In this document: one piece after another, positions 38,279-56,640 of the stretch
Layout: each line of letters starts with the position of its first letter
Position numbering within the stretch: the stretch's first letter is position 1
Assembly (NCBI RefSeq): GCF_016863035.1
Contig: NZ_BOOC01000001.1
Location: forward strand, 248,001 to 312,000
Length of the DNA stretch: 64,000 bases
Direction of reading: 5' to 3'
Source: Microbispora corallina
Lineage (GTDB): Bacteria > Actinomycetota > Actinomycetes > Streptosporangiales > Streptosporangiaceae
The notes under the pieces: model-generated
What the model saw: only the letters and a program-made list of their open reading frames with translations
Database searches by the model: none
What the model was told of the DNA's origin: nothing
Position numbers and translations under genes: made by a program

Positions 38279-38415
38279 CACCTGACCATAGATTGTCCAC
38301 CGGGCATGCCGCCAATGCAGGTGCCATAACGACTTGGGCAACTACTGCGCACACCGGCCGTGCCGCCCGTTGTGCGTGACGCGCGGCCGCAGGGCTAGGC
38401 TGAGGGGCGTAAGAC

Positions 38416-38505
38416 GCGCGGGAGCCCGGCGGCCGGGCTGAGAGGAGAGCGGAGGCTCTCGACCGCCAGACGACCTGATCCGGGTAATGCCGGCGAAGGG
38501 AGCGC
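38416..38505 (+). ncRNA. TPP riboswitch (thi-box) controlling thiO-thiS-thiG
   Basis: The conserved core is evident: GGGAGCCC...GGGCTGAGAGGAG, then ACCTGATCCGGGTAATGCCG and GCGAAGGGAG. The closing helix can form between GCGC at 38416-38419 and GCGC at 38502-38505. The thiO ribosome-binding site (GAAGGGAG) is part of the riboswitch 3' strand, four bases before the GTG, so ligand binding should block translation directly. A TAGGCT box at 38396 is a likely -10. Confidence 0.93.
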
Positions 38506-38506
38506 T

Positions 38507-40670
<2,164 letters not shown>

Positions 40671-55342: not shown

Positions 55343-55413
55343 GCCGCCATCCTGCCACCCGCCACGCGGCCGGCACCCACCGGTACCCGGAGCCGGCGGT
55401 GCCCGCGATGCGC

Positions 55414-55419
55414 TATATT
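55414..55419 (+). promoter_or_regulatory. -10 element of the aroF leader transcript
   Basis: TATATT is seven bases before the ATG of the leader peptide, so transcription probably starts at or next to the A of that ATG. The -35 region is weak. Such an AT run is rare in this DNA. Confidence 0.55.
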
Positions 55420-55426
55420 TCGGACC

Positions 55427-55498
55427 ATGCGCACCGCGTACGTGTTTTGGTACGGCGACGGACCCGTGAGGACCGTTCGCCTCCACGCGCTGCGCTGA
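55427..55498 (+). CDS. Aromatic-amino-acid leader peptide of aroF
   Basis: 23 codons, MRTAYVFWYGDGPVRTV and on to RLHALR, then TGA. The codons Tyr-Val-Phe-Trp-Tyr at positions 5-9 contain all three aromatic amino acids, expected only by design in so short an ORF. It lies just before an attenuator hairpin and the DAHP synthase gene. Starvation for any aromatic amino acid would stall the ribosome there. The mRNA appears leaderless at the peptide ATG. Confidence 0.8.
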   Translation: MRTAYVFWYGDGPVRTVRLHALR

Positions 55499-55548
55499 CA
55501 GCCACGGCGAACGAAGGCCCCGGGTCCACACGGACCCGGGGCCTTCGT
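55474..55548 (+). terminator. Attenuator of aroF with alternative pairings
   Basis: The terminator is a 17-bp perfect stem (55511-55527 with 55532-55548, ACAC loop), followed by CGTCGTTTCC. Two competing helices are possible: CGTTCGCC (55474-55481) with GGCGAACG (55506-55513), which overlaps the terminator base by three bases; and GGACCCG (55460-55466, in the peptide ORF) with CGGGTCC (55521-55527). Which acts as antiterminator is unproved. Confidence 0.75.
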
Positions 55549-55599
55549 CGTTTCCGGGACCGGCCGCCGGCGGGGCGGCCGGCCAGCGAAGGAGTTGAC

Positions 55600-56640
55600 A
55601 TGGTCATCGTCATGGCCCCGGAGGCCACGCAGGACGACGTCGAGGCGATCGTCGCCCTCGTCGCGACGGCGGGCGGGGAGGCGTTCGCCAGCCGCGGCGT
55701 GAGCCGCACGATCATCGGACTGATCGGCGACGTGGAGCAGTTCGCCGCGCTCAACCTGCGCGGCATGCGCGGGGTGGCGGACGTGGTGCGCGTGTCGACG
55801 CCGTACAAGCTCGTGAGCCGGGACAACCATCCCGAGCGGTCCACGGTGACGGTGCGCGGGGTGCCGATCGGGCCGGACACGGTGACGCTGATCGCCGGAC
55901 CGTGCGCCGTCGAGACGCCCCGGCAGACGCTGGAGGCGGCCGAGATGGCGAAGGCCGCCGGGGCGACCCTGCTGCGCGGCGGCGCCTACAAGCCGCGCAC
56001 CTCGCCGTACGCGTTCCAGGGGCTGGGCGAGGAGGGGCTGCGCATCCTCGCGGACGTGCGCGAGCAGACCGGGCTGCCGGTCGTGACCGAGGTGGTGGAC
56101 GCCCACGACGTGGCGCTCGTCGCGTCGTACGCCGACATGCTCCAGGTGGGCACCCGCAACGCGCAGAACTTCGCGCTGCTGCAGGCCGTCGGCGCCGCGG
56201 GCAAGCCGGTCATGCTCAAGCGCGGCATGACCGCCACGATCGAGGAGTGGCTGATGGCGGCCGAGTACATCGCGCAGCGCGGCAACCTCGACATCGTCCT
56301 GTGCGAGCGCGGCATCCGGACCTACGAGACCGCCACCAGGAACACCCTGGACATCTCCGCCGTGCCGGTCGCGCAGCGGCTGTCGCACCTCCCGGTGATC
56401 GTCGACCCCTCGCACTCCGGCGGCCGGCGGGACCTGGTCCTCCCGCTGAGCCGGGCGGCGGTCGCCGTCGGCGCCGACGGCGTGATCGTCGACGTGCACC
56501 CCAACCCGGAGCAGGCCCTGTGCGACGGGCCGCAGGCGCTCGTGGACGGCGACCTCGAGGCGCTCGCAGCCGTCATGCGGGACTTCCCTCCGCTGCTCGG
56601 CCGCACGCTCACCCGGCCCGCCCCGGCCGCCCTCGCCTGA
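55600..56640 (+). CDS. aroF: 3-deoxy-7-phosphoheptulonate (DAHP) synthase, type I with ferredoxin-like domain
   Basis: 346 residues. The N-terminal ferredoxin-like regulatory domain (1-70; MVIVMAPEATQDDVEAIV, IIGLIGD) is as in Thermotoga-type enzymes that are feedback-inhibited by Tyr/Phe. The barrel follows, with VTLIAGPCAVETPRQ, RGGAYKPRTSPYAFQG, MLKRGM and IVDPSHSGGRRDL (metal His). It begins the shikimate pathway. GAAGGAG precedes the ATG. Expression is predicted to be attenuated by the upstream leader peptide. Confidence 0.95.
   Translation: MVIVMAPEATQDDVEAIVALVATAGGEAFASRGVSRTIIGLIGDVEQFAALNLRGMRGVADVVRVSTPYKLVSRDNHPERSTVTVRGVPIGPDTVTLIAGPCAVETPRQTLEAAEMAKAAGATLLRGGAYKPRTSPYAFQGLGEEGLRILADVREQTGLPVVTEVVDAHDVALVASYADMLQVGTRNAQNFALLQAVGAAGKPVMLKRGMTATIEEWLMAAEYIAQRGNLDIVLCERGIRTYETATRNTLDISAVPVAQRLSHLPVIVDPSHSGGRRDLVLPLSRAAVAVGADGVIVDVHPNPEQALCDGPQALVDGDLEALAAVMRDFPPLLGRTLTRPAPAALA

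Follow-up and report, generated by a model that had tools for sequence, protein, structure and literature searches.

Organization of the aroF Leader Region

The window, by which we mean the whole 64,000-nucleotide stretch of Microbispora corallina DNA analyzed here, carries aroF at 55600–56640 on the forward strand, as are all features of the leader region described below. The gene encodes a 3-deoxy-7-phosphoheptulonate (DAHP) synthase of type I-beta, the Bacillus subtilis type (TIGR01361, 9.5e-116), whose product matches PF00793 at 2.2e-80 and contains a ferredoxin-like domain (PF18152) as well. A Shine-Dalgarno sequence, GAAGGAG, is recognizable by eye at 55588–55594. Farther upstream lies a leader ORF of 23 codons, MRTAYVFWYGDGPVRTVRLHALR (55427–55498), which runs from an ATG at 55427–55429 to a TGA at 55496–55498 and is preceded, at a distance of seven bases, by a −10 box, TATATT (55414–55419). 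Codon conservation and a folding model single out Tyr5 (TAC), Val6, Phe7 (TTT), Trp8 (TGG), and Tyr9 (TAC), at 55439–55453, as the putative regulatory codons. Three alternating helices can be drawn from the leader onward. The first is the P1 (1:2) hairpin at 55454–55481, in which 55454–55461 pair with 55473–55481 and base 55476 is bulged. The second, a candidate antiterminator spanning 55460–55527, consists of two nested helices, 55460–55466 with 55521–55527 and 55474–55481 with 55506–55513. The third is a terminator hairpin at 55511–55548, in which 55511–55527 form 17 perfect pairs with 55532–55548 around the loop ACAC, beginning 12 bases past the leader stop. The first-pass annotation of this DNA had placed the −10 box, the ORF, the perfect hairpin ahead of aroF, and both competing helices; its description is exact to the base, and the two helices pair as it drew them.

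The gene upstream of the leader is oriented divergently, and its top NCBIfam match, to MsrP (2.9e-13), falls under the cut-off of that family. Because of this orientation, the reading of the hairpin as a terminator belonging to the upstream gene is rejected. A further G+C-rich hairpin (55560–55582) separates the terminator from the Shine-Dalgarno sequence of aroF; in some relatives, of which locus L005 is one, the spacer is too short to accommodate it. Elsewhere in the window, a TPP riboswitch (RF00059) is found at 38408–38518 with a score of 63.5 bits.

Conservation and Coding Signature of the Leader

A leader of 22–26 codons, a −10 box, and a terminator arm accompany aroF at 78 of 80 loci, taken as the best 80 of 383 relatives, the nearest of which include Planotetraspora and Microbispora loci at 89–92% identity. 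At these 78 loci and in the window, the terminator arm is of the CCCCGGG type and follows the leader stop by 16–23 nt. Recurrence of the aromatic codons and hairpin among relatives, on which the first-pass annotation had staked its proposal, is thus borne out. Conservation on this scale, together with the covariation described below, rules out an accidental hairpin. Inspection of the two remaining loci (L053 and L074) reveals no leader at aroF, and the genome of the window itself contains an aroF-like paralogue, 81% identical, at which scans detect no leader (L082; contig C11, 217787–218794). The proposition that a leader precedes every DAHP synthase gene is refuted by these loci.

A covariance model of the element, R1, matches 147 of 150 genomes drawn from the order at E-values up to 0.001. 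Within the family of the window, full-length matches are obtained in 144 of 146 genomes at E-values of 1.9e-12 or better, and the gene behind the leader is aroF in all 69 R1-matched family genomes whose locus was examined. The two non-matching members of the family (G022 and G093) are without this aroF and contain only a distant homologue, 35–40% identical over part of the sequence; outside the family, G001 has no aroF homologue at all. All three f3-family genomes contain aroF, each time behind a distinct leader (VRGTGWFYFYG..., VLGRWYFLYD..., and VTRWFFPYG...), and R1 has a match somewhere in one of these genomes and none in the other two.

The set used for the analyses of the leader comprises the window and the 78 loci above (n = 79). 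Selection for an open frame filtered little in assembling it, because failures amount to only 2 of 80 loci. Start codons are ATG in 63 leaders and GTG in 16, stop codons are TGA in 56, TAG in 22, and TAA in one, and the gaps that alignment A1 opens inside the ORF have lengths divisible by three. Beyond the ORF, the spacing from stop to terminator arm takes every value from 16 to 23 nt across the 79 leaders. Among 35 leaders selected by their peptide start, MRTA, synonymous variation is seen in the codons for Arg, Thr, and Ala. From the maintained reading frame we infer that the leader is translated. Phe and Tyr both occur in the first 13 residues of all 79 leaders and Trp occurs there in 74; the five Trp-less aroF leaders (L037, L045, L048, L051, and L065) have Phe and Tyr only. 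Additional in-frame aromatic codons are present in L009 and L047, and a second, early Tyr codon is found in the window (position 5) and in L108 (MRTVYAFWYG).

The 3′ end of the leader (55490–55498 and its equivalents) is also conserved. The last codon is CGC in 75 of 79 leaders, with CTG before CGC in 59 of 79, and this CTG CGC stop ending is kept at the nucleotide level though the residues before it vary. It perhaps pairs with the ATGCGC at the leader start.

Promoter and Predicted Leaderless Start

In all 79 leaders, a TANNNT box stands 6–9 nt upstream of the start codon. At a distance of 6–8 nt, such a box precedes 78 of 79 leader starts versus 2 of 548 other ATG or GTG triplets in those upstream regions, the former figure being inflated because the start codon was picked by the presence of an upstream −10 box. 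No −35 consensus was found upstream of the leaders at the 79 loci, and an ordinary sigma-70 promoter with a −35 element is rejected on that basis. Immediately ahead of the −10 box (55409–55413 and equivalents), the 79 loci share a conserved block, TGCGC TANNNT, in which the T five bases before the box is present in 97% and the G two bases before it in 96%.

The predicted first transcribed base of the aroF leader is the A of ATG 55427 or a neighbor of it, and the mRNA is therefore probably leaderless. The leaderless transcript proposed in the first-pass annotation is supported by the conserved spacing between −10 box and start codon, and the start itself retains the standing of a prediction.

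RNA Structure and Covariation

The minimum free energy (MFE) of 55414–55600 corresponds to a z-score of −4.98, with none of 200 shuffles equally low, and that of the antiterminator stretch (55457–55527) to −2.64, with 3 of 200 equally low; 55427–55512 by itself folds no better than its shuffles (z 0.04). The arms of the helices have been swapped wholesale between clades and yet remain complementary, as in GGCGACGG...CCGNTCGCC, GACCAGCC...GGCTGGTC, and GACGAG...CTCGTC. In all three helices, matched arms out-pair mismatched ones, with 0 of 2000 permutations as good, these permutation tests being inflated by kinship of the sequences.

For alignment A1, 20 of the 79 leaders, mostly near-identical, were removed by hand, so that 59 remain. 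Its column 144, in the terminator 5′ arm, pairs with column 156 of the 3′ arm as U-A in 43 sequences and C-G in 16, and with column 66 of the leader segment as A-U in 39 and G-C in 15. Covariation of a single column with two alternative partners fits an attenuator with mutually exclusive helices. Three measures in A1 (paired cells, cells with changes in both partners, and the covariation score) are higher for both structures than in any of 500 shuffles or in any slid control. The two stricter counts, which the test software rates as least prone to false positives, do not rise above the shuffles; these are the number of pairs with changes in both partners and the number of different pair types. 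For the antiterminator in A1, 7 pairs have changes in both partners versus 7.6 in shuffles, with 434 of 500 shuffles reaching that count, and its number of pair types is reached by 267 of 500. For P1 and the terminator, the corresponding fractions are 43 of 500 and 418 of 500. The covarying stems sought since the first reading of this DNA are visible at column 144 and in the exchange of arms, and not in the two stricter pair counts.

The helices of A1 also differ in completeness. The outer antiterminator helix is paired in 94.8% of cells and the inner (2:3) helix in only 72.6%, and P1 is paired in 81.1%, with rows of the Actinomadura type misaligned in this region. In the terminator, the upper 14 pairs are 99.3% paired and the lowest three 55.9% (59 sequences).

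A Related Element before Chorismate Mutase

Full-length R1 matches are also found in genomes of another family, f20, which is probably Streptomyces. Leaders in this family, for example MLTQTTFLFTYGNRPTGCHGRAA, mostly have a CATACT box 6–7 nt upstream and are followed by a GGCGCCCCGGGCC terminator. The gene behind them is small and matches chorismate mutase (PF01817 at 1.8e-7 for L144, whose protein was used to identify the enzyme at other loci by tblastn). Related Phe/Tyr leaders with a terminator precede chorismate mutase at L141–L152, L155, L156, and L184–L227, mostly in one large-genome family. The divergent neighbor at five f20 loci resembles a gene that we take to be guaA.

A second covariance model, R2, built from 14 chorismate mutase leaders, matches 73 of 394 class genomes at 1e-5, of which 38 come from f20 (a count, not a share of that family). 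Its one match in the genome of the window is the aroF leader, at 4.7e-6. Since R1 and R2 each find the element of the other, the aroF and chorismate mutase elements are related. Alignment A2 of chorismate mutase leaders (n = 14) contains 4 pairs changed on both sides versus 1.1 in shuffles, with 0 of 500 shuffles as high. Among 20 class-wide R1 stretches, 14 lie before chorismate mutase, one before aroF, and five (L154 and L157–L160) before neither; partial R1 matches at the terminator end and the weak own-genome matches L087–L092 are excluded from these counts.

Examination of 47 chorismate mutase loci yielded a leader in 46 (from L184–L227, L155, and L156). Phe and Tyr without Trp occur in the first 14 residues of 43 of these, and three include Trp. 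At L230, chorismate mutase is present and a leader is absent by the rule applied; L231 and L232 have neither gene. By these codon counts, a Trp codon is common before aroF and rare before chorismate mutase, a pattern that tracks family lines and is not a tally of independent events. A strict rule of Trp only before aroF fails both ways at the edges, and further Trp-less aroF leaders are found at L127, L163 (core only), L228, and L229, the last two in another family.

The product of aroF feeds all three aromatic branches and chorismate mutase only those to Phe and Tyr. The aromatic codons of the leaders fit the place of the gene in the pathway, for aroF and chorismate mutase alike: the core is spelled TTT TGG TAT before aroF versus TTT ACC TAT before chorismate mutase. 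On balance, we lean toward the view that an ancestral aromatic attenuator serves as a portable module in actinomycetes, its codons retuned to the pathway position of the gene behind it and its RNA switch kept.

Another leader, on the same contig as the window but outside it, belongs to a gene that fuses a DAHP-synthase-like part to chorismate mutase (PF00793 and PF01817; L183/L084, contig C1, 178344–179093 region). A −10 box precedes this leader, MARYFTFTWPAPGGPVARR, by seven nt, and its GCAGAGGC/GCCTCTGC hairpin has TTTTT behind it. Loci L237–L240 have leaders similar to it (VAKVYYAFTEPVRTGAAA and alike), and the same scan finds none at L236.

Proposed Attenuation Mechanism and Switch Point

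Control of aroF by a ribosome-mediated transcription attenuator on a leaderless transcript is, in our judgment, highly probable. We infer stalling, termination, and a response to each amino acid from parts whose presence, conservation, and covariation are seen directly in the sequences. RNA polymerase would begin at the ATG of the leader ORF and a ribosome would follow it on the leaderless mRNA, the two probably being kept in step by a polymerase pause at P1. Scarcity of aminoacylated tRNA for Phe, Trp, or Tyr would make the ribosome wait in the Tyr-Val-Phe-Trp-Tyr run and cover the 5′ arm of P1, leaving 55460–55481 free to pair with 55506–55513 and with the terminator 5′ arm at 55521–55527, an arrangement that would permit read-through into aroF. 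When all three amino acids are plentiful, the ribosome would reach the stop codon and cover the segments within 55460–55481, upon which the 17-bp hairpin would form and terminate transcription. The first-pass annotation identified the element correctly, and its account of the mechanism is very probably correct as well.

A folding model, in which the ribosome masks the RNA as far as 12 or 14 nt beyond its A-site codon and the rest is folded out to the last base of the terminator 5′ arm, supports the proposal that stalling at the regulatory codons would flip the structure. With the 12-nt footprint, the modeled antiterminator of the window is at 0.86–1.00 for a ribosome at codons 1–8, 0.13 at Tyr9, and 0.00 beyond; with the 14-nt footprint it is at 0.55 at Trp8 and 0.00 at Tyr9. 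In 57 of 79 leaders (12 nt), the change point coincides exactly with the final aromatic codon of the core, and it lies within two codons of that position in 73 of 79 (12 nt) or 71 of 79 (14 nt), compared with 25% for a uniform placement; among chorismate mutase leaders, it lies within two codons in 38 or 42 of 46. This measure was adopted after the result of an earlier, looser one, the last codon with pairing above 0.5, was known to be scattered and noisy. For the full RNA at equilibrium, the terminator forms whatever the position of the ribosome and the antiterminator is at 0.00, so control must be kinetic. For RNA ending at 55527 with no ribosome, the antiterminator is at 0.97 versus 0.02 for P1, and the untranslated state is therefore not clearly "off."

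The claim that one peptide senses all three aromatic amino acids holds at the level of codons, with Phe, Trp, and Tyr together in 74 of 79 leaders; the response itself is predicted, and the folding model casts doubt on whether Tyr would be sensed at codon 9. A variant of the main explanation, not exclusive of it, is that genuine attenuation responds in effect to Phe and Trp alone, or chiefly to Phe, with the last Tyr codon lying too near the antiterminator and persisting as a structural leftover. We regard this as possible but the less likely outcome. The low modeled antiterminator at Tyr9 (0.13 or 0.00) speaks for it, as does Corynebacterium glutamicum aroR, which a review (PMC11802643) describes as unaffected by Tyr availability. 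Tyr is nevertheless encoded in 79 of 79 leaders, the window and L108 have an extra early Tyr codon, and the actual ribosome footprint may be shorter than the one modeled.

The codons themselves have a bearing on whether the core, UUUUGGUAU, might be kept as an RNA element, a protein- or pause-site, instead of as a peptide. The first 13 codons of the 79 leaders include TTT 80 times (as at 55445–55447 in the window), TTC 68 times, TAT 80 times, and TAC 10 times, and chorismate mutase leaders have TTT 48, TTC 44, TAT 41, and TAC 16. The adjacent aroF genes avoid the leader codons TTT and TAT, which account for 0 of 467 Phe codons and 0 of 356 Tyr codons in their first 335 codons (n = 79), a bias that an RNA element would accommodate. 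Slow decoding through wobble pairing, or pausing of the polymerase where the run is rich in U, may also explain why the leaders use TTT and TAT. A conserved RNA element is nonetheless very improbable: codon-sized gaps and exchanges of the stop codon preserve an open, aromatic-rich frame, Tyr-to-Phe changes (TTTTGGTTC) and the extra aromatic codons of L009 and L047 keep that frame, and W-to-S/T differences span several bases with the frame still open.

The tail of the terminator bears on a further reading, in which the hairpin works via translation-level or Rho-linked polarity with no ribosome-stalling antiterminator. In keeping with this reading, the U-tract is poor. The window terminator has a strong stem and a T-poor tail and is absent from the list of a terminator scan, and 5–9 T occur within 16 nt past GGGG in 75 of 79 leaders, the GGGG pattern having located nothing in four. 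Actinobacteria are placed at the low end in predicted Rho-independent terminators in passages of PMC2965389. The terminator 5′ arm, however, also covaries with the leader segment, a relation for which a simple terminator has no need, and in the MFE structure of 55414–55600 the aroF Shine-Dalgarno sequence is enclosed only in the loop of a mere 4-bp stem; we consider polarity of this kind very improbable. A T-box or metabolite riboswitch has next to no likelihood and is rejected, since no Rfam family reaches its gathering threshold at the leader and a search at E-values up to 10 returns only matches far under gathering scores.

Relation to Known Attenuators

The preferred reading, ribosome-mediated attenuation, has several precedents. 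An aroR-aroF attenuator of C. glutamicum was reportedly described by Neshat et al. in 2014, and leaderless cysteine attenuators are said to have been described by Canestrari in 2020. The trpL, pheL, and ilvGMEDA leaders of Escherichia coli start with a Shine-Dalgarno sequence and follow a 1:2, 2:3, 3:4 logic, and the ilvGMEDA leader reads three amino acids. The aroF leader shares this logic; unlike the E. coli attenuators, its antiterminator would consist of two nested parts, one of them drawn from P1 and its loop. All three E. coli cases are among the attenuated operons listed in a portion of PMC1183508.

According to a review (PMC11802643), the aroR leader of C. glutamicum has Phe-Tyr-Phe and governs the aroF operon, with a response to Phe and none to Tyr; an attenuator before aroF is also described in part of PMC4046766. 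Like the window, this system has an aromatic-codon leader and an attenuator before an actinobacterial DAHP synthase gene. It differs from the window in its Phe-Tyr-Phe codon set, with Trp unmentioned in these accounts, and the two are likened here by description. Leader-peptide attenuators of Streptomyces lividans are mostly leaderless, several with terminators (excerpts of PMC8079986), and a leader-peptide attenuator at Corynebacterium diphtheriae ilvB, along with leaderless leaders, is described in excerpts of PMC5784534. In these accounts, as here, a leader ORF contains cognate codons, but the amino acids are Leu, Trp, Ala, Ile, Met, and Thr, and none of the eight S. lividans leaders covered in the excerpts of PMC8079986 stands before aroF or chorismate mutase. 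Passages of Seliverstov et al. 2005 (PMC1262725) report trp attenuators in actinobacteria and Phe and Tyr operons without conserved upstream structures, from a genome set that includes two Streptomyces and Thermobifida fusca.

In a search of open-licence papers, no report came up of an attenuator preceding chorismate mutase, or preceding aroF within this order. Given the known leaderless actinobacterial leaders and the Phe-Tyr-Phe attenuator of C. glutamicum, the aroF leader is less unusual than first thought. It probably belongs with the known leaderless ribosome-mediated attenuators, and the match of codons to pathway position between it and the chorismate mutase leaders is a notable pattern.

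Biological Implications

If true, a three-way aromatic sensor at the entry to the pathway would be a new specificity for switches of this kind, and the aroF switch may interest strain builders seeking more aromatic precursors. Related leaders with differing aromatic codons stand before different genes of one pathway and therefore form a natural test series, from which it could be learned what codon set, codon position, and ribosome footprint each contribute to the specificity of an attenuator, probably on leaderless mRNA. For the organisms themselves, the leaders suggest that a large actinomycete family controls its supply of aromatic amino acids at the level of RNA, in contrast to the 2005 survey of actinobacteria, which in the passages concerned (PMC1262725) saw no conserved structure at Phe and Tyr operons.
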